From a virus, in IMG/VR virus record IMGVR_UViG_3300010354_000315, positions 1 through 33,381 of that record: 33,381 nucleotides of DNA; one strand, given 5' to 3'. The notes beneath the pieces were generated by a model. It made no database searches, was not told the DNA's origin, and saw only the letters and a list, made by a program, of their open reading frames with translations. The first letter of the stretch is position 1, and the number at the start of each line of letters is the position of its first letter. A program made the translations under genes and the position numbers. This document shows positions 410 to 32,864 of the stretch, piece after piece.

Positions 410-2059
410 ATGGCATTTAATTTTTTCGGATTCGAATTTGGTAAGTCTAAACAAGAGAAGCCCCTTTCATTTGCCCCGCCTCCATTAGATGACGGGGCTT
501 CTTTTGTTGAGGCAGGCGGTCTTCAAGGTTATTATATAGATCTTGATGGCACTCTGCGTTCAGATTCTGATTTAATTAGAAAATATAGAGAAATGAGTTT
601 ACATGCAGAAGTGGACATGGCAATTTCTAGCATTATAAATGATTTTATAACAGAAGATGCTAAAGGAATATTTGTAAAATTAAACACAGATAGAGTAAAC
701 TTACCATATCCTATTAGAAAAATAATAATTGAAGAGTTCAATGAAGTTTTAAAATTATTAGATTTCAATAGAAAAGGATTTGAAATAGCAAGAAGATGGT
801 ATATTGATGGTAAACTATATTATCATCAAATTTTACACGATGATCCTAAAATGGGTCTAAGAGAACTTAGACAAATAGATCCACTGAAAATAAAAAAAAT
901 AAAAGAAGTAACAGATAAAACACGTTTAAACAACGTTGATATGATTACAGATTACATCGAATATTATGTTTATACCCCATATGAAAAAACAAACAGTTAT
1001 ATAACATCAAACGAATCTATACAAGGACTAAGAATATCTGCAGATGCAATTAATTATGTGCATTCTGGATTATATGATTCAGTCTCAAGACGTATAGTTA
1101 GCCATTTACACAAGGCTATTAAGCCACTCAATCAATTGAGAATGATTGAGGATGCTACAGTAATCTATCGTGTTTCTAGAGCACCAGAACGTCGCGTGTT
1201 TTATATAGACGTTGGATCTCTGCCAAAAGTAAAAGCAGAACAATATTTACGCGATCAGATGAATCGCTATCGAAATAAAATTGTTTATGATGCTGGAACT
1301 GGAGAAATTAGAGATGATAAGAAGCATATGTCTATGCTTGAAGATTTTTGGCTACCACGCAGAGAAGGCGGTAAAGGTACAGAAATTTCAACATTGCCTG
1401 CTGGACAAAACTTGGGTGAAATGGCAGACGTAGAATATTTCCAAAAGAAATTATATATGTCATTAAATATACCAATAACCCGTATGCAAGCAGATAATGG
1501 ATTTAATATGGGTCGTTCATCTGAAATTACTAGAGATGAATTAAAATTTGCAAAATTTATAGACCGTATGCGTGTAAAATTTGCTGAATTGTTCACTAAT
1601 TTCTTAAGAACACAATTATTGGCAAAGGGTATAATGAATGATGTCGATTGGAAGGATATTGAACAAAATCTAAAGGTTGAATTTTCAACCGATTCTTACT
1701 TTCAAGAGTCTAAACAAACAGAATTAATAAAAGAAAGATTGGGAGTTTTACGAGAAGTTGCAGATTATTCTGGTAAATTCTTTTCAGATAAATGGATACG
1801 TAAAAACATTCTTCGACAAACAGATGATGAAATTGAAGAAATTGATCGTGAAATTGAAGAAGAGAAGGCCATACAAACTGCAGAAATTGAGGCTCAGGCA
1901 GCACAACAGCAAACTGAAGCCGCAGCCGAAGCTGAACAACAAGCCCAATCAGGTGGAACAGCTGAACAACCACCACAACAAGAAACTGCCCCAGCAAAAC
2001 AAGAAGTTCAGGAGCAACCTATAACTAAAAATATTTACGACGTAAGTGATTTGCTCTGA
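410..2059 (+). CDS. 20: Portal vertex protein gp20
   Basis: Forms the dodecameric portal at one capsid vertex, which nucleates head assembly, anchors the packaging motor and joins the tail. The 549 residues compare with 524 in T4. Recognisable family segments are DLDGTLRSDSDLIRKYREM near residue 45, the PEVD-like stretch HAEVDMAISSIINDFI, and the central RAPERRVFYIDVGSLPKVKAEQ region with the LPAGQNLGEMADVEYFQ clip/stem region after it. The C-terminal 60 residues are a low-complexity Gln/Glu/Ala/Pro tail (about residues 480-535), probably disordered and longer than in T4. The start at 410 follows an AGGA ribosome site. It lies between gp19 and an accessory island; in T4 and cyanophages the core genes 67/68/21 follow directly. 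Confidence 0.97.
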   Translation: MAFNFFGFEFGKSKQEKPLSFAPPPLDDGASFVEAGGLQGYYIDLDGTLRSDSDLIRKYREMSLHAEVDMAISSIINDFITEDAKGIFVKLNTDRVNLPYPIRKIIIEEFNEVLKLLDFNRKGFEIARRWYIDGKLYYHQILHDDPKMGLRELRQIDPLKIKKIKEVTDKTRLNNVDMITDYIEYYVYTPYEKTNSYITSNESIQGLRISADAINYVHSGLYDSVSRRIVSHLHKAIKPLNQLRMIEDATVIYRVSRAPERRVFYIDVGSLPKVKAEQYLRDQMNRYRNKIVYDAGTGEIRDDKKHMSMLEDFWLPRREGGKGTEISTLPAGQNLGEMADVEYFQKKLYMSLNIPITRMQADNGFNMGRSSEITRDELKFAKFIDRMRVKFAELFTNFLRTQLLAKGIMNDVDWKDIEQNLKVEFSTDSYFQESKQTELIKERLGVLREVADYSGKFFSDKWIRKNILRQTDDEIEEIDREIEEEKAIQTAEIEAQAAQQQTEAAAEAEQQAQSGGTAEQPPQQETAPAKQEVQEQPITKNIYDVSDLL

Positions 2060-2088: not shown

Positions 2089-3798
2089 ATGCCTGCAGCA
2101 TATTACGATTTATACGGCGAAGAAGGTGCATTTTTTGTATTAAAATTAAATTTATTAGATAAAGATGGGAAACCTGTAAATTTATCAGATTCTACCAAAG
2201 GATTTTATGTTCCAGAGGAACTGCAAGCATTGGGTATTCAATCTTCCGAAATACAATCTATAAATGGAAGATTGCAATTAAAATCTAATATTTTTAATGA
2301 AGATTCTATAATATTATTTAAGAGTGATGGCCCAACCACATCTGAAGGGTCAATTATATTAAAAGACAGTTTAAATAATAAAACTTTAGATCATAATATA
2401 TTAATTCATAAAAAATTAACCAGAACAACTCTAATTTTAGGTCAATTGGAAGGCATGGAATTAGTTGAACCGGGAATAGGATTGGTTCCACAAAATTTAA
2501 TAGTCACTGATGTTAAGGGAACTACTTATAGAATTACAACATCTAAATTAGGAAATCCTGACACAGAAGCAACATATCATAGTGCAGATAAACCGTATCC
2601 AAGAACACGATTATATACAACTGGAGGAAATTTTGGTGTATGTGATTACACACTTTCAAATGTGACAATAAATAAAGTTAATACCAAAGCATCATATTCT
2701 GAAGGAGAAATATTAGATCTAAATGTTGGAGCAGGCGGATTTCCGTGTGTATATTACACTTATGGCGCAAGTGAAGGTATAGGCACAGAAGATCCAATAG
2801 AAACTGAAAATTTAATCTACTATTTATCTGTGACTTCCTTATACGGTGCAGCAACTCCACAAGTTCCCAATCAAGGAGATATAATACCGTTTACAGGAGT
2901 AATAAATGGACAAACTGTAACTTTACCTTTTACAGTAGCAGTCAGATATGGTGGAACCCCACGGGAGGGTCGTTGGGATGCAGTATTTGGTTTATGGTAT
3001 GGTGGTGATACTTCTACTGGAGATTTTAAATCATATACAAAATTACAACAATTTTTTTCTACTGTATCTAGAACTAATAATATTACATTTACGCGCCAGA
3101 ATTGGAATGACGGTACCCCAAAGGGGTCAATTCCGGCTGGTGCAGGAACCGGAGTAATACAGGCACTAGGTGGTGCCCATGCAGTTTATTGTGGTGATAA
3201 ATCACAATGGAAGAACCCCCCAAATGCAGATGTTTTTAACACAGCAGCACAAAAATCATTAACATTAAATAATTTTCAAATAGATCCTAGAGTTATTACT
3301 GATATTGGTGGCAATCCTTCATCGGGGCCTTCAGGATCTGCAGAAAAAAGATTATATTTTTTATCTTGCTCTAAACAACAAAAATACTTAAACCAATGGG
3401 ATGGTTGGGCAGACGGGTTTGCACAATGTGGATGTTTAATGAAAATATATGCCGGAGCAGATAATACTGCAATAGAAACAATGAACACAAGAATAGTGGA
3501 TGAAGTAGCCACATCAGTTTTACCTGATGCAATATATGATTTAAAATCGGGCACAACTGGAGGCGTACCATCTGGAAAATTTATGAATGGAGTTGAAGTA
3601 CAAGATGGAAGAGATCTTATGCGTTATGTTACTCCAAAAATTAAAGTAACATCAGTATCCCAAAAAGACGTAAGCATTTTAGGAACGCATTTTTATGATC
3701 TAGAATTAGACTTTGTTGTTACCGGAGCAAATGCAGGCACTTATACAATAAGAATGATGCAAGGAAAGTTTACAATTTCACCAGAGGTAAGTTTCTAA
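2089..3798 (+). CDS. Putative structural protein, 569 residues, function unknown
   Basis: I do not recognise a named family. The protein is rich in Gly, Thr, Ser and Asn with many short beta-strand patterns, no membrane segment and no signal peptide, which suits a virion surface or baseplate/fibre component. Its first 45 residues (MPAAYYDLYGEEGAFF, then KDGKPVNL) resemble the first 40 residues of the small protein at 28982-29371 (MPAGIFDI, then DVAINLTG), so both may start with the same beta-rich attachment domain; this is weak. The second half has a Cys-containing patch (FLSCSKQQ, FAQCGC near residues 425-452). It is preceded by a late promoter box and AGGAG ribosome site, and its stop overlaps the next start by one base, so it belongs to the late structural island. 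Confidence 0.7.
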   Translation: MPAAYYDLYGEEGAFFVLKLNLLDKDGKPVNLSDSTKGFYVPEELQALGIQSSEIQSINGRLQLKSNIFNEDSIILFKSDGPTTSEGSIILKDSLNNKTLDHNILIHKKLTRTTLILGQLEGMELVEPGIGLVPQNLIVTDVKGTTYRITTSKLGNPDTEATYHSADKPYPRTRLYTTGGNFGVCDYTLSNVTINKVNTKASYSEGEILDLNVGAGGFPCVYYTYGASEGIGTEDPIETENLIYYLSVTSLYGAATPQVPNQGDIIPFTGVINGQTVTLPFTVAVRYGGTPREGRWDAVFGLWYGGDTSTGDFKSYTKLQQFFSTVSRTNNITFTRQNWNDGTPKGSIPAGAGTGVIQALGGAHAVYCGDKSQWKNPPNADVFNTAAQKSLTLNNFQIDPRVITDIGGNPSSGPSGSAEKRLYFLSCSKQQKYLNQWDGWADGFAQCGCLMKIYAGADNTAIETMNTRIVDEVATSVLPDAIYDLKSGTTGGVPSGKFMNGVEVQDGRDLMRYVTPKIKVTSVSQKDVSILGTHFYDLELDFVVTGANAGTYTIRMMQGKFTISPEVSF

Positions 3799-4022
3799 TG
3801 GCATATCTTGTAGTAATAGCAAAACAACCAAAAACTGTTTTTGAACTTTCAGAAAATAATTATTCTGTTAAAGATACATCTTTTGTTAAATCTAGACCAA
3901 TAGATTTGACACAAGATCCGGATTATGAAAGAATAACGCAAACAGTATCATTATTTGCACCACCAAGCAATATATTAGGTTGTGATGAAACGTACAATGT
4001 GATAAATGTATGTAATGAATAA
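3798..4022 (+). CDS. Small 74-residue protein ending in a shared Cys module
   Basis: No known family recognised. The start overlaps the preceding stop (TAATG), indicating translational coupling. Its last 17 residues carry NILGCDETYNV followed by NVC (Cys62 and Cys72), then stop. The same pattern appears at residues 53-69 of the 205-residue protein (NLLGCADSFFV, then C69) and residues 18-34 of the 2002-residue protein (NLLGCDESFDV, then C34), where it is followed at once by Pro/Ser linker. So this protein looks like the stand-alone form of the N-terminal module, or a truncated relative that has lost its linker and distal domains. A role in docking these proteins to the virion is inference. Confidence 0.7.
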   Translation: MAYLVVIAKQPKTVFELSENNYSVKDTSFVKSRPIDLTQDPDYERITQTVSLFAPPSNILGCDETYNVINVCNE

Positions 4023-4025
4023 AAT

Positions 4026-4033
4026 AATAAATA
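4026..4033 (+). promoter_or_regulatory. Possible late promoter box (AATAAATA)
   Basis: One mismatch to the TATAAATA late box, placed in the 34-base gap between the 74-residue protein and the 205-residue Ser-rich protein, 23 bases before its start. Spacing to the start is like that of the exact boxes elsewhere in the window. The AT-rich background makes chance matches possible. Confidence 0.4.
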
Positions 4034-4056
4034 TAGTTTTATAGGTATTTTTAATT

Positions 4057-4674
4057 ATGAAAAAAGAAAGAAAAATAAAATTAAAAATACAAAATAAAAC
4101 TGTATTTAAGAGTAAAAATGTTTTATTGTTGTTTGATAATGCATTTAAAGAATACGAACCATTAAAATATAAAGACGCATTTTTAAATGAATTAGGTGTA
4201 CAGAGTGCACCTAATTTGTTGGGTTGTGCAGATTCGTTCTTTGTATTAGATGCAGATCCCTGTGATCCTCCTCCACCACCTCCGCCTCCTCCACCACCAA
4301 GTTCGTCCAGTTCGTCCAGTTCGTCTAGTAGTTCTAGTAGTTCTAGTAGCTCTAGTGGTGTTAGTAGCAGCAGTAGTAGTAGAAGAAGTTCTAGTAGCAG
4401 TGGTGGCCCATGCATAATACCCGGATGTTGTTTTAGCACCTGTCAATCATGCGAACTAGCATTAGATGGCACAGGAAGTGTTATCTTTGTAAATGGATGT
4501 CCTGTTTATAATTGTTTTGCTGCTTGTGCAAACGGCTGTAGGGATCCAAATTTGTGTGGTTCTAGTTCATCATCGTCATCATCAAGATCATCGTCATCAT
4601 CCAGCAGTGGTGGCGGAAGCGGATCTACTGGCACAGGAACTAGTGGACAAGGATTGGGAGTAACATTATTATGA
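4057..4674 (+). CDS. Pro/Ser/Cys-rich putative surface protein (205 residues)
   Basis: Unrecognised, but strongly organised. Residues 1-50 are basic and possibly folded; 53-69 carry the shared module NLLGCADSFFV with Cys57 and Cys69; 71-81 are eleven Pro; 82-115 are Ser tracts broken by GV and RR; about 118-167 form a compact domain with about ten cysteines (PGCCFSTCQSCE, CPVYNCFAACANGC) that suggests disulfides or metal binding; 168 onward is a second Ser tract ending in a Gly/Ser/Thr tail. The reading frame is real: the Ser codons mix TCN and AGY types, and the stop overlaps the start of the glycosyltransferase gene (ATGA). Probable role is a small linker-bearing virion surface protein, possibly modified by the neighbouring enzyme. 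Both statements are inference from layout and composition. Confidence 0.75.
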   Translation: MKKERKIKLKIQNKTVFKSKNVLLLFDNAFKEYEPLKYKDAFLNELGVQSAPNLLGCADSFFVLDADPCDPPPPPPPPPPPSSSSSSSSSSSSSSSSSSSGVSSSSSSRRSSSSSGGPCIIPGCCFSTCQSCELALDGTGSVIFVNGCPVYNCFAACANGCRDPNLCGSSSSSSSSRSSSSSSSGGGSGSTGTGTSGQGLGVTLL

Positions 4675-5456
4675 AAATATATCTATCATATTGGCCAAAT
4701 GGTTATGTAAATGGAATGACGGAAGAAGTTATGAATATGCATAAATTGTCTGTTCACTTGGTAAATAAAAATTACGGAGAATGTCATTTGATGACAGATA
4801 AAAAAGGTAAAGAATTATTAAAACATTTGCCTTTTAAATCTATAAGCACAGATTTAGACATAATTTCTAATGTAAGAACACACAATTGGGCTTTAGGTAA
4901 ATTATACACATATTACATGTTATCAAAATATGGCATAAATTTTTTACATTTAGATTATGATGTTTTTTTATGGAAACCTTTACCTGATACCTTTTTACAA
5001 AATTTGATATTTGCACAAAGTATAGATTACCATACACACTTTTATTGTGAAGAAATTTTTCAAAGAGAAGCAAAAAACAAATATTCGGCAAAAAAATTCA
5101 ACAATAATAACATTGCATACAATATGGGTATTTTTGGTGGAAGTGATTTGGATTTTATATCTAAATATTCAGAAGAGGCAATTGAATTGACATTAGATAA
5201 AGAAAATCAAAATTGTTATAATTCTATGGCAAATTGTTTTCATTCTTCAGTGGCGTGCTTTTGTGAGCAAATGTATTTAAGAATAACAGAGCAAAATTAT
5301 AATAAAAAAATAGAATGTTTATTCGGTACTCTAAGTGATCATAAAAAAATGGATAAATTGAGCGTTGAATACGGTTATACCCATTTAATAGGTGAAAAAC
5401 AAAATTTAACAGTTCATAAAAAAATAAAGAAAAGAATAATTGAACTCGGATTATAA
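4671..5456 (+). CDS. Putative GT-A type glycosyltransferase (DUF6734-like)
   Basis: Likely transfers a sugar from a nucleotide-sugar donor. Visible support: an N-terminal beta-strand start (MKIYLSYWP), the segment WALGKLYTYYML at residues 73-84, and FLHLDYDVFLWKPL at 91-104, in which Asp95-x-Asp97 has the form and position of the metal-binding DxD motif of GT-A enzymes such as GT32/GT8 and related bacterial families. NMGIFGG near residue 151 fits the acceptor-side segment of such enzymes. The 261 residues are a normal length. It overlaps both neighbours (ATGA at the start, TAATG at the end), so it is coupled to two poly-serine proteins. That placement suggests Ser O-glycosylation of the fibre linkers, but host-surface modification cannot be excluded. 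I am fairly sure of the fold, unsure of the substrate. Confidence 0.72.
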   Translation: MKIYLSYWPNGYVNGMTEEVMNMHKLSVHLVNKNYGECHLMTDKKGKELLKHLPFKSISTDLDIISNVRTHNWALGKLYTYYMLSKYGINFLHLDYDVFLWKPLPDTFLQNLIFAQSIDYHTHFYCEEIFQREAKNKYSAKKFNNNNIAYNMGIFGGSDLDFISKYSEEAIELTLDKENQNCYNSMANCFHSSVACFCEQMYLRITEQNYNKKIECLFGTLSDHKKMDKLSVEYGYTHLIGEKQNLTVHKKIKKRIIELGL

Positions 5457-8400
5457 TGACAGACCCACGATTAAATGACTGGTTTGTAGATAGAATAACA
5501 CAATCTAACCTTTTAGGTTGTGATGAGAGTTTTGATGTTCCTGTTTTTAATGTATGTGGTCCTGGAGGTCCACCAATATCAAGTTCATCTACTGCACCAC
5601 CCCCTCCGCCACCATCTTCATCGTCATCTTCATCATCGATTTCTTCCAGTTCATCTACTTCTTTAAACTGTTCTATCTTACCATATAAGTTAAGACTTCA
5701 GATGACTGATCATTATTATGTTGTAATGGATGCATCAAAAAACGGTTATCTCTCTGAAGTGCAGATACCTGGTACATTACCTAATAACAAATATTCTTCT
5801 TTTTTTATAAGAGCAGTTCCTGATTCAGGTATTGTTGATTTAACTCTTTGTTGTGATCAATATAATGCAAGATATGCTAGTAATTTAATTAGATTAAATT
5901 TAACAGTTCCTCCAAATTCAGTTCTTGTTAAAAATCTAATAGAAGTTAATAAATTAAATCCTTTATTGTTTAAAAAAGGCCCTTATTATTGGTATAAAGA
6001 AGAGGGATGTGCGTCCGCTTCCCCCGTTTTACTGAATGTTTATGCGTATGCCTTTTTGACTTGGTCTGAAGGCGCAAAAAAATGGTATTTTCAATATTAT
6101 GTTGTTGCTCCTGTGTGTTATACGGGTTCAGGTTGTGATAGTTTCACGGTAGCACCTGCAGATTTTAAATACCCAAACAGCTTTAGTGATCCCTGCATAG
6201 GATTCAATGAATTAAGCATGGATGTTATAGAACCATATAAAACTGTAAAAATACCAAGAATAGAACACGGTTCGTTTTTTACATGTAAAGATGGTTATGA
6301 ACTAGATTTACAATCACCATATCTGATTGAAGTGCCAAGATTTGGTAATAGGCTTGAAGAGTTTACTACTTACGATTTATATCACCAATCACCAGATAGA
6401 AGATCTCGTGGTGAAATAATCAATGAACCAATGATAGCCGAGGGACCGAGAAGATCTATTACCAACTATGCCCCATTTGCTTTGAACTGCAATACTGGTG
6501 CAATAGCACCCCCAAGTGTTCCTGGTGTAGATTGTTTTAATACAGTAGATTATAGATGTTATCAAGATTCTCTTTTTACTAGACTAGGAAGATATTTGCT
6601 AAATGTTGATTTTTATCGTTTTAGAGTTGAAGGTGACGCTTTTGTAAAATATTCGTATTACTATTACAGCACAGAAGTATATTGTTTACAAAAAGAACAA
6701 CCTTCTAGCAGCAGTAGCAGTAGCAGTAGTTCATCCAGACCTACAATTTGTTCTACTGCACCAGAACAAATTACTGTAAAATATACATTAGAAATTCCAA
6801 TTATTGAACAAGAAAATATCGTATATAAAACTTTTATATTCCAACAAACATTATATGCATTAAACATACAATATGTTAATTATCCAGTTTATAGTGCACT
6901 AAAACCAACAAAAACAACAACAAACAGCCCAAATAAAACAATAAAAATATTAGATTCAGAAGGGTTTAATGAGGCATCTGCACTATTTGATGTTGATGTT
7001 TGGGGACATATTAATGCATATGGCGTATTTGAAGATGGAGTTATAAAATATAAATTTGGGTTAACTTTTTATCACTCAGGAATATCTTGTAATAGTTATG
7101 ACAGTTCAGGTGTAAATTGTTTAGATTGCCCATACGAAAATAGAATTCCGACTCCAATAACATCTGTTGACTACACATATGATCAAGCAAAACAGATATA
7201 TGAGCAACAAGGAAGTTTTACTCCAAAATATAAGTTAACAGATGAAGCATGTAATTCTGTTATATTAACTTGTCCAGAAAAACTATGCCCAATCGGAACA
7301 GAAATACAAGAACTTTTTAAATTAAATGTTCAAAAATTATGTAGTGCTACACCGGATTCAGAAAAAATTTCATATATTGAAGCAGAACTTGTAAACACAA
7401 ATCCGGATGTTTGGATTCCCGGAAGAATTATAGATTCAGCAAATTATACTTGTCCGTCTGGTGGATTTTGGGATAGAGTAGTTTCTGTCGAGTTTATTGA
7501 CCTAGAAGATCCTGTTTGCAGATCTTCTTCTAGTTCTTCTAGTAGTTCGTCTTCTAGTTCTTCTAGTAGTTCGTCTTCTAGTTCTTCTAGTAGTTCATCT
7601 TCTAGTAGTCGTTGTCCTACAGCACCAGAATATATTCAAATATTTCATACATTAGAGGTAACCTCTTTTTATAATATAGGTGCACCAACACCAGAAACAA
7701 AATTATTTTGGTTCGTAGAAACCTTATATCCTTATCAATTAGAATATAATACTAATCCGGTGTATCTTCCACTTCAAGCTTCTGCTGCCATTGATGTTGG
7801 AGGTTTCCCAGACACAACAGTAAAAGTACCAACCTCTACATTTAATTTTCCAGCAAGTGGTGTTTTAGATTCGCCTGTTTGGTCCACGTCTATATTATAC
7901 CCACAAACTATAGGCGGAGTTACAAAATATTATTATAAAAGACACTTAAATACTCAAACTGGGGGTTGCACCGTTTTAACTGCAGGGTCTTGTTTATCAC
8001 AATGTCCAACTGACAGACAAATATTAACACCGGTGGTCCCCAAGATATATGATGGTAGCACAGAATTAACATCAGTATATAATCGTTTATATGTTCAAAA
8101 TTTAAAACCACTTTTTGTAATATCCACTGCAACTCCGGTTTGCACAGATACAAATCCGAATCCACCTGCAGTTGGAACATGTTGTTCTACGCTATTATTG
8201 CCAAATGAAACAACAGTCACGTTAATGCCTCTTTCGTTTACAAGAGATGGAACAACTGCGGAATATTGGAACACGGATACCGGAGAACTATTAGAATCCA
8301 ATCCATCAAATTGGAATAATCGTATGGTTTTATATGACGTAACCACAGGAGATGGCACTCCTTATCGTATTAGGAGGAAAATAGAATTAGATCTTGTTCA

Positions 8401-11400
8401 GTTTCCTGCTTGTTTTTCTAGTTCATCCAGTTCTTCAAGCCGCTCTTCTTCGAGTAGTTCTTCTTCATCATCTTCTAGTAGTTCAAGTAGAGCATTTTGT
8501 AACAAAACAGTAACATATACAATAGATGTTAAAAACCAATATTCAGGTTATGAAACTACAGGGTGTAAATTTATACATTATCTACATCAATGTACACCAG
8601 TAACCGGTGTCACAGGTAATCTAAAACGAACATATACAACCACATTGTACAATGAAGCAGATTTAACTAGTACTATGAGAAATACTAGGGATCGGTGTTC
8701 GAATCCGGCATATCAGGGTGATTCTATTTTATGGAGTAAATTACAAATAACCCACGAACCCGGAAACGTTGGTACAGGATTTAGCAATGGTAAGTTGGAA
8801 GTTTTGGGGTTTGTGGAATATGCTAAATGTTGTAATGAAGGAACAACAATACCAAATATTAGAAGTGAAGGATATACTGTATCACAAGCATGTTCCGGCG
8901 AACAAATAAAATTAAAATACGTAACAGCAGATTGTCACGGTGCTGTAAATGATGATATTGTGAGACTTGGGCCTATTGCTGGTGGTGCAATAGCTAATTC
9001 GTTTTATTTTGCAAAAAATACCCAAAATGAAAATTCTACTTGGTTATACCAATCCTCTTTTGCAGATGGACTTCCGGATTGGAATAATGGGGATTTAGGA
9101 TCATATAGAATATCTATGACCATATCTGATAACTGCAGTTCTAGTAGCAGTTCTTCTAGTTCATCATCCAGTTCATCTTCCAGCTCATCTTCAAGTTCTT
9201 CATCAAGTTCTTCATCAAGTTCTGCGTTATGTCCCAAGTTAATAAAAACAAAAATAACTTTTAAAAACAATAAACCAACAACACCAGAGCCGGTAAATAA
9301 TGTTATTTTTAATACCATAGTGGATAGAACCACGTTAACACCAGAGGGTCCAAATTCTCTACAATATTCTGCTAAAAAATTATATGAACCGGATATTAGC
9401 AGTTTTGAAAAAACTGCTAAAGTGGTGTGTGCCGATGGCAGTTATAGAGATTCCAAGTTGTGGGCATATTCGTCTTTTATTTTTAATCCTAGTACTCAAC
9501 AACTAAAATTAACAACTAAAATATATTCTGCAGGTTGTAATTGTTTTTCTGGCTGTGCATCTTGTTCGGATTTTAGAGTGCCAATTGTAAGCAGTGAAAA
9601 TGTTTCTGTTGCTGGATCGTATATACCAAGATTAGTTTACAATGAAGCCACTTGTTCAAATGTTGTTGGTTCGTTCTCAAGTGAACCGGAATATATAACA
9701 ACAACTGAAACATTTACATTATCATCATTTACAAATATTAATAATACATATACTGCTTCTAATGCAAGTATTGGATTCTCTATAGAATACCAAATAACAG
9801 ATGACCCCACTTGTATAGTGCCATCTTCTTCATCTTCATCCTCTAGAAACTATCCAATGTTTGCTTTATTGGGAGACAGTGGTGAATTGCCATTAGATGA
9901 AGATCTTAGAATTGCAAATGCAATAAAAGCACAGAATCCAGATTATATTATTCATATAGGCGATACTAATTATTATACACCGACAACAGGAACAGCATAT
10001 ACTAACGCATTTACAACAAATTTTTTCAATCTTTGGTCTGGAACTGGAAATTGGTTAAACAAAATGTATGTTGCTTTTGGTAATCATGATTTAGATTTAA
10101 GCACAGATTATGGCTTAACAATAATTAATAATTTATCTTTAGTTAGCAATGAAATAGGTTTAACAAATATAAACAATAGAAGATTATATTACGATTTTAT
10201 ATACCAAGGAATGCATTTTTTCGTATTAAACACAGGAAACACCCTCTGCGGTGACAGTATGACAGAAACAACAGGTTCTCCGAATAGGGATGCCAAACTA
10301 CAATGGACAACACAAACTACTGCAATAAAAGCGGCAATAAGAGCATCAACTGCACCTTGGAAAATATTAGTTTTACATAAAGCACCTTATACAAACGATA
10401 GCACCCACTATCCAGGTGTAACTAAAGCAAGAAATCTCGGAACTACTAATGGCATAGTAGACACACATAAATCTCTTGGAATAGACGTAGTGATATCTGC
10501 ACACTCTCACTTGTATGAACATCTAATAATAGATACTGTTAATTATATTGTTCAGGGAGCAGGTGGTGCAAACTTAAGGTGTCCTGTTTCTCCTCCCCAA
10601 ATAGGAACACAATTATCATATTGTTTAAAACACAGTTATACACTTTTAAAGAAAATAGATAATGGATCAATTTCAAATCTTATATTTGAAACAAGATCGA
10701 TTGATGATGAATTTATTGATTATGTAACACTAACTAAAAATACCAGTAGTTCATCGTCTTCATCATCCTCTTCTTCCTCATCCTCTTCTTCATCATCTTC
10801 TTCATCTTCCTCTTCTAGTAGTTCTAGTAGTTCTTCAGGAGTAAATCCAGTTTCAATTTATAGAATGAAAATTAGTTTTAATGGCACTCCATCATGTGGC
10901 CAAACTCTTTCAAATGTAACTTTTCAAGATAATCTTTATGTGTGTGATCCAACAAACCCAATATTCCATGTGCCACTAAAAGCAACAAGAGCACTTACTC
11001 CAACACAAGCAGGATATCCTTGTACAAATCTGTATAAATCAGTTTGCGCAAATAGTGTGTGCCTAGATTCTCCAATGTATGGGGTGTGTGGTCTTTATGA
11101 ACAAGATTATGGTGCAGGTGATATTAGAACTACAGTATATGTGAGAGTATTTGCAGAACCCTGTGTATGTGTAGACACCTATAATACACCAAATTGTTGG
11201 TATGGTAATTGTAATTCGGGTCAGTATAATATAGGAAATGTAACATCCATTACTTTATCGTTAGATAATGCTTGTATACAACCATATCAATTTAAATCTA
11301 ATTTTACAACATGCGCATGGGAGGCGAACTCTTTTGTTGGTATAGACGAAGTTGTATCTGATATTGCAGAAATATCTTTACCAATAAATCAACTAAATGG

Positions 11401-11464
11401 CACATATTCACTTACAACTATTAATTGGTCATGGCCTTTGGAATTAACAATTACAAAATTATAA
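5456..11464 (+). CDS. Giant modular poly-serine fibre/adhesin with a phosphatase domain (2002 residues)
   Basis: Probable host-contact virion protein. Order: shared module NLLGCDESFDV (18-34), Pro/Ser linker (41-70), then modules separated by Ser runs at about 417-428, 690-718, 988-1012, 1228-1256, 1457-1463 and 1764-1794. Modules after the runs begin alike (an early Cys and a beta-strand such as VKYTLE, IFHTLE, VTYTID) and contain D-x-x-x-W/Y: 512-516, 805-809, 1089-1093, 1332-1336 and 1871-1875. They look like diverged copies of one Cys-containing beta domain of 200-270 residues; the first (71-415) is longer and only loosely similar. Residues 1465-1763 are instead a purple-acid-phosphatase-like metallophosphatase. 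No signal peptide or membrane segment is seen. The start overlaps the glycosyltransferase stop. Fibre role is inference from size, modularity and neighbours; the reading frame is certain. Confidence 0.85.
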   Translation: MTDPRLNDWFVDRITQSNLLGCDESFDVPVFNVCGPGGPPISSSSTAPPPPPPSSSSSSSSISSSSSTSLNCSILPYKLRLQMTDHYYVVMDASKNGYLSEVQIPGTLPNNKYSSFFIRAVPDSGIVDLTLCCDQYNARYASNLIRLNLTVPPNSVLVKNLIEVNKLNPLLFKKGPYYWYKEEGCASASPVLLNVYAYAFLTWSEGAKKWYFQYYVVAPVCYTGSGCDSFTVAPADFKYPNSFSDPCIGFNELSMDVIEPYKTVKIPRIEHGSFFTCKDGYELDLQSPYLIEVPRFGNRLEEFTTYDLYHQSPDRRSRGEIINEPMIAEGPRRSITNYAPFALNCNTGAIAPPSVPGVDCFNTVDYRCYQDSLFTRLGRYLLNVDFYRFRVEGDAFVKYSYYYYSTEVYCLQKEQPSSSSSSSSSSSRPTICSTAPEQITVKYTLEIPIIEQENIVYKTFIFQQTLYALNIQYVNYPVYSALKPTKTTTNSPNKTIKILDSEGFNEASALFDVDVWGHINAYGVFEDGVIKYKFGLTFYHSGISCNSYDSSGVNCLDCPYENRIPTPITSVDYTYDQAKQIYEQQGSFTPKYKLTDEACNSVILTCPEKLCPIGTEIQELFKLNVQKLCSATPDSEKISYIEAELVNTNPDVWIPGRIIDSANYTCPSGGFWDRVVSVEFIDLEDPVCRSSSSSSSSSSSSSSSSSSSSSSSSSSSSSRCPTAPEYIQIFHTLEVTSFYNIGAPTPETKLFWFVETLYPYQLEYNTNPVYLPLQASAAIDVGGFPDTTVKVPTSTFNFPASGVLDSPVWSTSILYPQTIGGVTKYYYKRHLNTQTGGCTVLTAGSCLSQCPTDRQILTPVVPKIYDGSTELTSVYNRLYVQNLKPLFVISTATPVCTDTNPNPPAVGTCCSTLLLPNETTVTLMPLSFTRDGTTAEYWNTDTGELLESNPSNWNNRMVLYDVTTGDGTPYRIRRKIELDLVQFPACFSSSSSSSSRSSSSSSSSSSSSSSSRAFCNKTVTYTIDVKNQYSGYETTGCKFIHYLHQCTPVTGVTGNLKRTYTTTLYNEADLTSTMRNTRDRCSNPAYQGDSILWSKLQITHEPGNVGTGFSNGKLEVLGFVEYAKCCNEGTTIPNIRSEGYTVSQACSGEQIKLKYVTADCHGAVNDDIVRLGPIAGGAIANSFYFAKNTQNENSTWLYQSSFADGLPDWNNGDLGSYRISMTISDNCSSSSSSSSSSSSSSSSSSSSSSSSSSSSSALCPKLIKTKITFKNNKPTTPEPVNNVIFNTIVDRTTLTPEGPNSLQYSAKKLYEPDISSFEKTAKVVCADGSYRDSKLWAYSSFIFNPSTQQLKLTTKIYSAGCNCFSGCASCSDFRVPIVSSENVSVAGSYIPRLVYNEATCSNVVGSFSSEPEYITTTETFTLSSFTNINNTYTASNASIGFSIEYQITDDPTCIVPSSSSSSSRNYPMFALLGDSGELPLDEDLRIANAIKAQNPDYIIHIGDTNYYTPTTGTAYTNAFTTNFFNLWSGTGNWLNKMYVAFGNHDLDLSTDYGLTIINNLSLVSNEIGLTNINNRRLYYDFIYQGMHFFVLNTGNTLCGDSMTETTGSPNRDAKLQWTTQTTAIKAAIRASTAPWKILVLHKAPYTNDSTHYPGVTKARNLGTTNGIVDTHKSLGIDVVISAHSHLYEHLIIDTVNYIVQGAGGANLRCPVSPPQIGTQLSYCLKHSYTLLKKIDNGSISNLIFETRSIDDEFIDYVTLTKNTSSSSSSSSSSSSSSSSSSSSSSSSSSSSSSSGVNPVSIYRMKISFNGTPSCGQTLSNVTFQDNLYVCDPTNPIFHVPLKATRALTPTQAGYPCTNLYKSVCANSVCLDSPMYGVCGLYEQDYGAGDIRTTVYVRVFAEPCVCVDTYNTPNCWYGNCNSGQYNIGNVTSITLSLDNACIQPYQFKSNFTTCAWEANSFVGIDEVVSDIAEISLPINQLNGTYSLTTINWSWPLELTITKL
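7526..7597 (+). repeat. 24-base tandem repeat, three copies, in a Ser-coding tract
   Basis: The unit TCTTCTAGTTCTTCTAGTAG plus TTCG is repeated at 7526-7549, 7550-7573 and 7574-7597, the last copy differing only at its final base (A for G), followed by a partial fourth copy. Each unit encodes eight Ser, so gain or loss of a unit lengthens or shortens the linker without shifting the frame. It looks like recent slippage or unequal recombination. Confidence 0.9.
9191..9223 (+). repeat. 12-base tandem repeat in a Ser-coding tract
   Basis: The unit TCAAGTTCTTCA occurs at 9191-9202 and 9203-9214, with a partial third copy to 9223. It encodes four Ser per unit in the linker between the fourth and fifth modules of the giant protein. 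Upstream of it (from about 9137) are looser related units. Confidence 0.8.
9848..10744 (+). other. Purple-acid-phosphatase-like metallophosphatase domain inside the giant fibre protein
   Basis: Residues 1465-1763 of the 5456-11464 protein. All five family blocks are present in order: GDSG (Asp1474, the DxG form of purple acid phosphatases rather than DxH), GDTNYY (Asp1503, Tyr1506, matching GDxxY with its iron-binding Tyr), GNHD (Asn1543, His1544), LVLHKAPY (His1641) and SAHSHLYEH (His1683, His1685, matching GHxHxYE with Ala for Gly). From known chemistry of the family this would be a dinuclear metal phosphomonoesterase. The conserved ligands argue that it is catalytically competent. It is bounded by Ser linkers on both sides and replaces a regular module, so it seems to have been inserted as a unit. 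Confidence 0.88.
10745..10837 (+). repeat. Longest poly-serine tract (31 Ser codons)
   Basis: Thirty-one consecutive Ser codons (residues 1764-1794) joining the phosphatase domain to the last module. Codons are mainly TCT/TCA/TCC at first, giving a long pyrimidine-rich strand, then AGT appears at the end. The mixed codons show the run is kept at protein level and is not a simple microsatellite. Confidence 0.9.
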
Positions 11465-12289: not shown

Positions 12290-12931
12290 ATGAAGCTCAT
12301 AACCGAACATACAACAGAAGTAAAACTGCTAACAGAAGAAAAAGAAGGCAAGAAGCATTTCTTTATTGAAGGAATCTTCATGCAAGCAGACCAAAAAAAC
12401 AAAAATGGTAGAATTTATCCATATCCAATTTTATCAAGAGAATGTGGTCGTTATGTAACAGAATATGTTCAACAAAATCGTGCTCTCGGTGAATTAGGGC
12501 ATCCAGAAGGCCCAACTGTAAATTTAGAAAGAGTTTCACATATTATTAAAGAATTAAATATAAATGGAAAAGATATTATAGGTAAAGCAAAAATTATGGA
12601 AACTCCATATGGAAAAATTGTACAAAATCTTATGGATGAAGGTGCAAAATTGGGAGTTTCTAGCCGTGGCATGGGTTCTTTAAGAGAATTTCAAGGTGTA
12701 AACATGGTTCAAGAAGATTTTTCATTGGCAGCTGTGGATATCGTTGCTGATCCATCTGCACCAAATGCTTTCGTAAATGGAATTATGGAAGGCAAAGAAT
12801 GGGTGTGGGAAAATGGTATAATTAAACCAGTAGTTATTGAAAAATACAAAAACGAAATATCAAAAACAAGTTCAAGAAAACTTGAAGAACAAAAACTGAA
12901 GATATTCAAGGATTTCTTATCAAAATTATAA
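12290..12931 (+). CDS. 21: Prohead core protease gp21
   Basis: Serine protease packed inside the prohead; it cleaves core proteins and the capsid protein after an (L/I)xE motif so that DNA can enter. The 213 residues match the T4 gp21 family. GELGHPEG at 68-74 holds the probable catalytic His71 and GVSSRGMGS at 122-130 the probable nucleophile Ser (124 or 125); DIVADPSAPNAF near 150 is the conserved family segment following the active site. The beginning KNGRIYPYPILSREC is also typical of phage prohead proteases. The start at 12290 follows AAGGAAA. It sits in the standard core-gp21-gp22-gp23 order. Confidence 0.95.
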   Translation: MKLITEHTTEVKLLTEEKEGKKHFFIEGIFMQADQKNKNGRIYPYPILSRECGRYVTEYVQQNRALGELGHPEGPTVNLERVSHIIKELNINGKDIIGKAKIMETPYGKIVQNLMDEGAKLGVSSRGMGSLREFQGVNMVQEDFSLAAVDIVADPSAPNAFVNGIMEGKEWVWENGIIKPVVIEKYKNEISKTSSRKLEEQKLKIFKDFLSKL

Positions 12932-21302: not shown

Positions 21303-21794
21303 ATGAACGATAATATTTTCTCAAAATACAAAGACATATTAGAGAAAGAGACTCTAATACAGATAGAGGAACAAGATAATTGTATATCAATACAATGTCC
21401 AGAATCTGTTCATTTGTCTTTGTTAGAAATGCTAGATGATGAATTTTTTGATTATAATGAAACAGAAAATGGGGTTGAAATAGTCGATTCTTCTTTTGAA
21501 GAACTATTAGAAATTATCGAAGAATGTGATTTTTACAACTTTTTGACTGAGGCATCTGCTCAAAGAAAAATAGTTATTAGAGCAGGAAGACGAAGAGTAA
21601 TTTTTAAATGTCCTCCTGGATATAAAAGAATTAAAAGAACGTGTAGAAAACGACCTTCATCCGAGTTAGCAAAACTGAAAAGAAGAGCAAGAAAAGCTGC
21701 AAGAAAATCAAGAGGAAAAAGAGCACGGGCAATAAAAAGAAGAAAGGTTTCTCTAAGAAAGAGGAGAGGGATACCTAAGCCAAAACACAAGTGA
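21303..21794 (+). CDS. Putative packaged basic head protein with a gp21 cleavage site
   Basis: No named family, but two clear halves. Residues 1-83 are acidic and end in FLTE; residues 84-163 are extremely basic (RKIVIRAGRRR, CPPGYKRIKRTCRK, then almost continuous Lys/Arg/Ala to the end). Leu81-Thr82-Glu83 followed by Ala84 is an exact (L/I)xE|A site of the T4 prohead protease gp21. T4 internal proteins I-III are built this way: a short leader sends them into the prohead core, gp21 removes it, and the mature basic protein stays with the DNA. The leader here is longer than T4's. The late promoter box directly upstream fits a head protein lying among early genes. Role is inference; the site and charge split are seen. 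Confidence 0.72.
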   Translation: MNDNIFSKYKDILEKETLIQIEEQDNCISIQCPESVHLSLLEMLDDEFFDYNETENGVEIVDSSFEELLEIIEECDFYNFLTEASAQRKIVIRAGRRRVIFKCPPGYKRIKRTCRKRPSSELAKLKRRARKAARKSRGKRARAIKRRKVSLRKRRGIPKPKHK

Positions 21795-29927: not shown

Positions 29928-32864
29928 ATGAGCATAATTAAACTTAAAAGATCAGAAACAGCAGCAGCAACACCAGCATCGCTTGAATACGGTGAAGTTG
30001 CTATCAATATTACAGATAAAAAAGTTTATATTGGTAATAGTTCAGAAAATCCTGTTTTGATTGTAGACGGTAACAATACAACGTCAGAAGGGGTTCAGGA
30101 TACTGCGGCCTCCCTGCTCACCTCTGGAACACATACAGGAATTATAGTATCTTATCCAGATACAAACAATGCAATCAATCTTTCAATTGATTCATCTGTT
30201 GTTACCCTTACAGGTACGCAAACACTAACAAATAAAACATTAACATCTCCAACATTTACAACTCCAATTTTAGGCACTCCTCAATCTGGCAATTTGAGCA
30301 ACTGCACAAGTTTACCAATATCAACTGGTGTGTCTGGACTTGCTTCTGGTATAGCAACATTCCTAGCAACACCTTCAAGTTCAAATTTAGCAACAGCAGT
30401 TACAGATGAAACAGGTTCTGGTTCTTTAGTATTTGCTACATCTCCAACACTTGTTACTCCAATTCTTGGTACTCCACAATCTGGTACATTAACTAATTGC
30501 ACCGGACTACCAATATCAACTGGTGTGTCTGGATTGGGAACAGGTGTTGCAACCTTCTTAGCAACGCCTTCAAGTGCAAATCTGGCAGCAGCAGTTACAG
30601 ATGAAACTGGAACTGGTAGTTTAGTATTCTCTGCTTCTCCTACATTCACTGGAACAGTAAACGGAGATGCAGCATTGTTCACTGGAGATATCACTGCAAA
30701 TAGATTCTTTGGACATCATGTTGGTGAACAACAAGTTGAAGTAAAAAATACAAGTGGTGTAACAATTCCAAACGGATATCCTGTATACATCACAGGAACT
30801 GTTGGAGCAACATCTGTTTTGGAAGTTGCAGCAGCAGATGCATCAAATTCTGGCAAGATGCCTGCAGTTGGTTTAACAACTCAAGAATTAATAGCAAATG
30901 CCACAGGATATGTTACTATCATGGGTACAGTTACACAGGTAGACACAAGCACCTATGCAGTTGGCAATACTGTATATGTTGCTCCGGGTGGTGGATTAAC
31001 TGTAACAAAACCAACGGGATCAAACTTAATTCAAAACATTGGTAAAGTTGGTAGAGTAAATTCAAATAATGGAGAAATCGTTGTTACTGGTCCTGGTCGT
31101 ACTAACGATGTTCCAAACACAATTCCTTCAAATGCAACATGGAACGGTCAAACAATAGGCGTTGCTTATGGTGGAACTGGAACAGCTACTGGAAGTATAA
31201 CTGGTACTGGAGCACTTACATTTACAGCCGGTGGTACTAATACAAATGTTACATTAGTGCCAAATGGTACAGGAAGTGTAGATGTTTCGTCCAAGAAAAT
31301 TATAAACCTTACAACACCATCATCTTCAACAGATGCAGCAACTAAGGGATATGTAGATTCTGTTGCTCAAGGACTCCATGTTCACTCAACGGTAAAGACT
31401 GCAACAACCACAACTTTAGCCACACTCACTGGTGCAACAGTTTCCTATGCAGGTGGGGCAATCACATGGACAGGTGGAAACGCAGCAAATGGTGCGTCTT
31501 TCAACGATGGTACTACATTAACTGCAAATAATACAGAAGCTTCAGCAGACAAGATATTAGTAAAGAATGAAGCAAGCGTTGGTGGTCTTGGTGCCGCATA
31601 TAATGGTGTATATTATGTCTACGCTGCAAGAGAACTGAGAAGATCATCTGATGGTGACGCTGCATCGGATTGGTTAGGTGGCGATTTCGTATTCGTAACA
31701 GACGGAACGACTTATGATAATACTGGTTGGGTTCAGACAAATAAAGTAACAACTCTTGATACTGACCCAATCGCTTTCCAACAATTCTCAGGTGCTGGAA
31801 CATTCACCGCAGACGAAACTACACTAACATTATCGGGTAGTGTTTTTAGCATCAAGAACACATATGTTGGTCAAACAAGTATTACAACATTAGGAACTAT
31901 TGCAACTGGTACATGGAATGCAACCGCTATTGGTGCAACTAAAGGTGGTACAGGACAAACAACATATGCTGCTGGTGATTTATTATATGCATCGTCATCA
32001 AGTGCATTATCAAAATTAACAATTGGTGCTAATAATTATGTTCTTACATCAGACGGCACAAATCCAGTTTGGACAGCAAACACAGGAACGGGAAGCGTTG
32101 TAAGAGCAACTTCTGCAACTTTATCCTCACCAACATTTACAACTCCAATTTTAGGTACACCACAGTCAGGTACACTTACAAGCTGTACAGGATTGCCATT
32201 GACTACTGGTGTAACTGGAACATTAGGAACCGCTAACGGTGGTACTAACTTGACCTCTTTCACATCTAAAGGATTAGTATACGCCTCATCCGCTAATGTT
32301 CTAGCAACAGGAAGCGTATTTGGTGTTACTGAATCTGGTGCAGCATCTAATACTAGAAAAATTAATATTACATCAACAGTCGGTGTTGCTACTGGATTTG
32401 AAGCAACCGAATCAACTTACGGTAGCACTGCTTTTATTGGTATAGGTTCTGATTATTCTGGTGCAATTCATTCATATTCTGCACCATATGTTTCTTTAAA
32501 TAATGGAACAACATCTACTTTAATTGAAGTTGGTCCTGCTGGAGATAGCACTATTCCCGTTTCGGCATATTCTTTTTATAGTCAATATGACGGTGGAATA
32601 AATCTAACATGGTTAACATCCTCAGATAATATGTTTTATGCAACTATTAAAATAGGCTTTGATTATTCCAGTAATTCATATATTACATTTGAAGACAATG
32701 CATCAAATGGCAACAGCATAAATATAATGGCAAACATACTGAAGATAAACACAACTACACCAGCATCAGGTAAGATATTGACTTGTACCGATTCAAATGG
32801 TACAGTATCTTGGGAAGATAATGCAGGAGCAACACTAGCAATTTATAACGCAGGAGTAATATAA
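29928..32864 (+). CDS. Tail fibre protein with repeats (978 residues)
   Basis: Likely trimeric fibre for host contact. The N-terminus [20 protein letters not shown] then [17 protein letters not shown] is the common phage fibre head that ends in a variable-length repetitive shaft. Residues 107-236 hold two tandem repeats ([43 protein letters not shown]), with a third, partial copy near 734-766. A central domain ([34 protein letters not shown]) and another with [20 protein letters not shown] and [12 protein letters not shown] occur in many marine phage fibres. Next comes [20 protein letters not shown], then a C-terminal part (780-978) without repeats, the probable receptor-binding end. No chaperone or protease signature such as a C-terminal S74 peptidase is seen. 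Confidence 0.88.
30246..30638 (+). repeat. Two direct repeats (about 195 bases each) in the tail-fibre gene, third partial copy at 32127
   Basis: 30246-30440 and 30441-30638 encode near-identical 65-residue units; a partial third unit (about 100 bases) lies at 32127-32225. Shared DNA such as ACTCCAATTTTAGG-like and CCTCAATCTGGC-like pieces shows common origin with synonymous drift. Confidence 0.85.

Follow-up and report, generated by a model that had tools for sequence, protein, structure and literature searches.

What does a glycosyltransferase gene do when it lies between two genes for serine-rich proteins in the structural gene cluster of a phage? This question is raised by the IMG/VR virus record IMGVR_UViG_3300010354_000315, of which positions 1 to 33,381 (hereafter the window) were analyzed. 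The window is a fragment of a T4-like phage and follows T4-like gene order, with tail tube, portal gp20, prohead protease gp21, scaffold, major capsid and replication genes; gp20 and gp21 were identified by profile, and the remainder by reading the translations. The enzyme gene and its two serine-rich neighbours are part of a longer slot, at 2089-11464, between gp20 and gp21 (Table 1). On balance we lean, by a modest degree, towards reading this region as an enlarged, modular slot of the T4-like lineage for large Cys-rich proteins, which would carry its own protein glycosyltransferase acting on the slot proteins. The basis for this reading is the gene order, a motif common to the slot proteins, the family of the enzyme, its predicted fold and conserved catalytic pattern, and the recurrence of the enzyme beside such proteins.

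The enzyme scored 150.2 bits against the PF20508 profile, for which the curated cut-off is 27, and is thus a member of DUF6734. An AlphaFold2 model built from 28 phage proteins reached a predicted local distance difference test score (pLDDT) of 95.2 and a predicted template modelling score of 0.93, and a fold search of PDB with this predicted model placed GT8 and GT6 enzymes on top, which corresponds to a GT-A fold. The nearest solved structures were xyloside xylosyltransferase, alpha-1,3-galactosyltransferase, glycogenin and LgtC (Z 13.0 over 203 residues for glycogenin-2 and 12.1 over 219 for LgtC). Across 28 divergent viral DUF6734 proteins K77, H93, D95, D97, N151, G156, E199, H238 and K243 were invariant, and among these D95 and D97 form the DxD metal motif carried by the LDYDV segment. 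In GT8 enzymes the metal is bound by the DxD motif together with a C-terminal His, and the diphosphate by a Lys close by. Despite the GT8-like fold, no match to PF01501 (GT8) was obtained at E up to 1, and the enzyme does not belong to GT8 by sequence. Because its nearest structures are of GT-A type and these residues are invariant, the protein is very likely an active sugar transferase, as predicted from family, fold and conservation; the original prediction, made from the sequence alone, had proposed a GT-A-like enzyme and was supported in this respect.

With respect to the proteins around the enzyme, the 74-, 205- and 2002-amino-acid products have similar N-termini with a common 'LLGCDE/AD' segment, which in two of the three precedes a run of Pro, runs of Ser and modules that contain Cys. 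In the 2002-amino-acid protein, seven linkers of 7 to 31 Ser separate eight pieces, among them diverged modules that contain Cys and a single phosphoesterase domain. Homology between pieces 3 and 4 is clear (4e-12), and pieces 5, 6 and 8 appear to be divergent copies. Ser runs of at least 8 residues use codons from both boxes (104 TCN and 54 AGY), and as these boxes are more than one substitution apart yet are mixed, serine is held at the protein level and did not arise from one slipping DNA repeat alone. A predicted model of one module gave a pLDDT of 40 and only a hint of beta strands. Position, repeated modules, spacers and the common N-terminus suggest that the slot proteins are carried on the virion, with the short 'LxGCDE' segment probably serving as the docking piece. 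Piece 7 is the phosphoesterase domain, in which GDSG, GDTNYY, GNHD and AHSH motifs were all found; a phosphatase placed between Ser linkers of a putative surface protein would be an unusual component of a virion.

Table 1. Features of the gp20-gp21 slot and its borders, in window coordinates.
Feature	Position	Strand	Match or content
Portal gp20, upstream slot border	410..2059	+	Portal_T4 6.6e-168
First slot gene, 569 aa	2089..3798	+	C-terminus matches phrog_1084
74-aa protein	3798..4022	+	Mainly N-terminal 'anchor' ending NILGCDETYNVINVC
205-aa Pro/Ser/Cys protein	4057..4674	+	LLGCADSF motif, P11-S19 spacer, Cys-rich module, second Ser spacer
DUF6734 glycosyltransferase (predicted), 261 aa, FLHLDYDVFLWKPL	4671..5456	+	PF20508 1e-43, GT-A fold
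2002-aa protein	5456..11464	+	LLGCDESF motif, P/S spacer, seven Ser linkers
Ser linker 1	5615..5662	+	After PPPPPP
Ser linker 2	6704..6736	+	11 Ser
Ser linker 3	7523..7609	+	29 Ser
Ser linker 4	8417..8488	+	8+15 Ser
Ser linker 5	9137..9223	+	29 Ser
Ser linker 6	9824..9844	+	7 Ser
Purple-acid-phosphatase-like domain (piece 7)	9845..10744	+	PF00149 2.3e-11; tartrate-resistant/purple acid phosphatase 0.001
Ser linker 7	10745..10837	+	31 Ser
Prohead protease gp21, downstream border	12290..12931	+	Peptidase_S77 6.1e-35, phrog_207

The enzyme gene overlaps both of its neighbours, upstream through ttATGAaa and downstream through tTAATGa, and the first slot gene likewise overlaps the 74-amino-acid reading frame by TAATG. 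These joints, together with the 205-amino-acid Pro/Ser/Cys protein, the LDYDV enzyme and the 2002-amino-acid protein with its seven Ser linkers, are all as originally described. It had been argued from the overlaps that the three genes are translated together. While the overlaps stand, they were rejected as proof of coupling: 11 of the 32 junctions in the window overlap, four by 4 bases and two by 1, so that short overlaps are not special to this locus. Their frequency also suits a different account, in which unrelated late genes simply accumulate in the slot and the enzyme is a hitch-hiker there, with no functional tie to its neighbours.

The slot is large for its kind. Some 10 kb separate gp20 from gp21 in the window, and the corresponding gap in three isolated relatives holds only small genes, over about 0.4-1.6 kb; the portal gp20 is at most 53% identical to that of phages in the public collection. 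The glycosyltransferase gene is linked to the structural genes by its place between gp20 and gp21, and the same holds in two T4-like relatives, L035 and L037 (L-numbers are labels of loci retrieved by contig scans). In both the order is gp19, gp20, a phrog_1084-like gene, a gene for a Cys-rich LxGCDE protein, DUF6734 and gp21, as in the window; the Cys-rich protein has a collagen-like spacer and no poly-Ser. A scan for the LxGCDE motif across all loci returned only these two and one chance match. The first slot protein resembles 'M[PS]AAYYD/MPAAFYEF' proteins at the equivalent place in L468, L100, L101, L035 and L037, and L468 also has a 74-amino-acid gene where the window has one. A slot and partner motif repeated in this way in L035 and L037 count against mere hitch-hiking.

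Searching viral contigs from the enzyme recovered 34 contigs with DUF6734, and a rescan with the 28-row alignment gave the identical 34; single-sequence scans of the viral contigs gave no match. By tblastn against 50,697 phage records, the enzyme had no match even at E 10, nor was there one for the 2002-amino-acid protein, the first slot gene or the Cys-rich protein of L035. Viral DUF6734 genes lie in or after tail-fibre-like clusters, many of them inside such clusters and some accompanied by GT92-like or sulfotransferase genes. A minority lie directly behind low-complexity or Cys-rich genes, of which the products are poly-Gly/Cys (L005, L006), (GS)n (L023), Pro-rich (L030), Gly-rich (L031), Cys-rich (L033) or collagen-like/Cys (L035, L037). 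Such upstream neighbours were enriched, with low complexity in 5/28 viral DUF6734 loci versus 13/445 (p 0.0025) and Cys-rich (at 4% Cys) in 4/22 versus 10/369 (p 0.005), in tests that are small and with thresholds picked after looking. The enrichment is a further point against hitch-hiking.

Besides the limits of these tests, several results weigh against a slot equipped with its own glycosyltransferase. No slot protein is known from any virion, and a sequence profile of the enzyme found no usable match in PDB, so that no solved glycosyltransferase was matched by sequence. A Ser run of at least 8 within about 10 kb was present in 0/34 of the viral DUF6734 loci. L468 has a full slot with Ser/Cys-rich proteins of 1000 and 845 amino acids and no DUF6734 between gp20 and gp21; L337, with the same 845-amino-acid protein, has none in the part of the slot covered, and in L100 and L101 Cys-rich proteins are present but DUF6734 is not. 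Because these nearest relatives separate the two features, the slot is modular, with spacer type and enzyme varying independently, and the partner of the enzyme is better described as an anchor-bearing Cys-rich protein than as a poly-Ser protein. The same independence would be expected if the enzyme had hitch-hiked; given the repeated slot and the ATGA joint to a Pro/Ser/Cys protein that recurs in L283 (below), we regard that account as unlikely.

Other features of these clusters were observed alongside. DUF6734 and sulfotransferase-like genes occur together in tail-fibre-like clusters of L015 (7304-10274), L016 (4662-7632), L017 and L011 (9986-11347), and in L015-L017 each cluster has two DUF6734 genes and a GT2/GT92-like gene, possibly as multi-enzyme cassettes for virion decoration. 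Tandem DUF6734-like copies, two each in L007 (8320-9950) and L008 (8572-10202) and apparently up to four in L009 (57-3840), suggest that individual copies might differ in their acceptor or donor. At 29928-32864 the window encodes a 978-amino-acid fibre-like protein with an Mtd_N-like start and repeated units; in L007 and L008, DUF6734 directly follows fibre-like genes whose start is similar. Elsewhere in the window, 21303-21794 encodes a 163-amino-acid protein with an extremely Arg/Lys-rich C-terminal half.

If the slot does carry its own protein glycosyltransferase, the metal-dependent GT-A enzyme would be produced in the cytoplasm of the infected cell alongside the slot proteins, and would transfer sugar from a host nucleotide-sugar onto them before or during assembly. 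Each slot protein would have the 'LxGCDE' segment at its N-terminus, then a spacer that is flexible and either poly-Pro/Ser or collagen-like, and outer domains that vary. Candidate acceptors are Ser/Thr in the linkers or Ser/Thr/Cys in the Cys-rich modules. The sugar may shield or stiffen the proteins, make them resistant to proteases or aid binding to the host. We infer both the identity of the acceptors and this effect.

A stricter version of this mechanism, nested within it, takes the Ser linkers themselves to be the sites that the enzyme O-glycosylates, as in serine-rich-repeat adhesins. The placement of the enzyme gene, which overlaps a poly-Ser gene on either side, suits it, and three scans of viral contigs with Pro/Ser or Ser DNA patterns (247 loci) bear on it further. 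The first Pro/Ser pattern gave, by filter, a reading frame for a poly-Ser protein in 8/120 loci, several of them spurious- or host-like, and the second scan gave a poly-Ser protein in 63/120. L283, a locus that a Pro/Ser DNA pattern brought up independently of the enzyme, encodes a 480-amino-acid Pro/Ser/Cys protein whose gene shares an ATGA joint with a diverged DUF6734 gene of full length (77 bits, against 6 for the best of 2000 shuffles), which makes a second such pair; this contig has two more DUF6734 genes. Further phage proteins from these scans lie beside GT25, GT8 or GT2 genes. The poly-Ser proteins of L193, L197, L232 and L362 are in records with GT25 genes, and L193 has an ATGA overlap between its poly-Ser and GT25 genes, with a GT8 gene next in line. 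GT25 exceeded the cut-off in 4/36 poly-Ser records versus 1/50 controls, a contrast too small for significance and suggestive only, and both GT25 and DUF6734 were absent from most of the poly-Ser phage records that were checked for them. Linkage of the enzyme to Ser-rich genes, which the original prediction had expected, thus held for the L283 pair but failed when approached from the enzyme (the 34 viral loci) and in L468, which has poly-Ser but no enzyme in this slot; in L035 and L037, DUF6734 in the equivalent slot serves a protein without poly-Ser. We therefore consider modification of the Ser linkers themselves possible but doubtful. Decoration of co-encoded virion-type proteins in the broader sense is plausible and recurrent (L035, L037, L283 and the fibre clusters).

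In metagenomic phages, proteins with poly-Ser tracts are widespread (L299-L418: 63/120 pattern loci). Among them are baseplate-wedge-like proteins with such tracts at the C-terminus (L339, L341, L342, L354 and L382) and, in L366 and L368, proteins above 60% Ser. One further candidate, L197 4124-5383, appeared glycosyltransferase-like by eye in its N-terminal half; Pfam found only a methyltransferase in its C-terminal half, and it was not counted. No literature report of poly-Ser with glycosyltransferases in phages was found.

A different target would be a glycan or lipid of the host surface, for superinfection exclusion or receptor change, or the phage DNA. Enzymes with related folds include those of lipopolysaccharide synthesis, for example LgtC, and passages of PMC12619734 describe phage glycosyltransferases for host serotype and for DNA. 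Against such targets, the gene lies inside a late structural cluster, DUF6734 has virion-type neighbours in several unrelated phages, and no base-hydroxylating or sugar-nucleotide gene was seen among the window genes. Bacterial relatives, which adjoin ribosomal peptide genes, point the same way. Bacterial DUF6734 was found at 61 loci, nearly all in Bacteroidota; when two plasmids are included, 10/63 loci had a Cys-rich double-glycine-leader-like peptide beside it on the same strand and 3 on the opposite strand, versus 0/80 viral loci as control. Examples in Bacteroidota are L002, L003, L059, L091 and L093, and the locus of an Emticicia plasmid has lantibiotic dehydratase, LanC-like, VKOR and TlpA genes. 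No description of a DUF6734-type enzyme in double-glycine-leader peptide clusters was found. These neighbours favour polypeptide acceptors, and we judge a host-surface or DNA target improbable. As a tentative and rather doubtful generalization, DUF6734 may be a polypeptide glycosyltransferase family acting on Cys- and Ser-rich ribosomal products, namely double-glycine-leader peptides in Bacteroidota and exchangeable 'anchor-spacer-head' surface proteins in phages, and T4-like phages would thereby gain a dedicated glycosylated coat of flexible appendages.

No paper was found on DUF6734, a family without assigned function, of which the phage enzyme is a full match with the conserved residues intact; the long extension that Hymenobacter and Emticicia proteins have at the C-terminus is absent from it. 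With GT8 enzymes (glycogenin, LgtC, xyloside xylosyltransferase) it shares the GT-A fold over about 200 residues, the DxD motif and an HxxGxK-like C-terminal motif, but identity is about 10% and there is no Pfam GT8 match. Glycocins resemble the bacterial loci in that DUF6734 is there partly beside Cys-rich double-glycine-leader peptides; glycocin peptide glycosyltransferases are a different enzyme family. The likeness to serine-rich-repeat adhesins is a Ser-rich surface-type protein adjoining a glycosyltransferase. Those adhesins have Ser-x repeats whereas the phage protein has homopolymer Ser linkers, and neither GtfA/GtfB, accessory Sec genes, a signal peptide nor a cell-wall anchor was seen in the window translations and the Pfam scan of the slot proteins, which cover a partial genome. 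This analogy is therefore loose, and the original prediction was partly supported: right in kind, too specific on the acceptor and too close to these adhesins. Its statement that no T4-like phage is known with this arrangement agrees with the lack of anything similar in the 50,697 phage records.

If the slot proteins are indeed glycosylated, a function could be named for an uncharacterised family, T4-like phages would join those with glycosylated virions by way of an enzyme encoded next to its probable substrate, and the reason for the persistence of long poly-Ser linkers in phages could be put to a simple test. In mycobacteriophages, virion glycosylation is attributed to glycosyltransferases that the phages encode. 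There, capsid and tail-tube subunits are glycosylated, with glycans at their C-termini, according to passages of PMC12619734 citing Freeman et al. 2023. Here, by comparison, DUF6734, a putative virion-protein glycosyltransferase, has large Cys-rich proteins with linkers as its neighbours in the gp20-gp21 slot of a T4-like phage; the enzyme family, the location and the type of protein, found neither in the literature searched nor in the phage collection, appear to be new for virion glycosylation.

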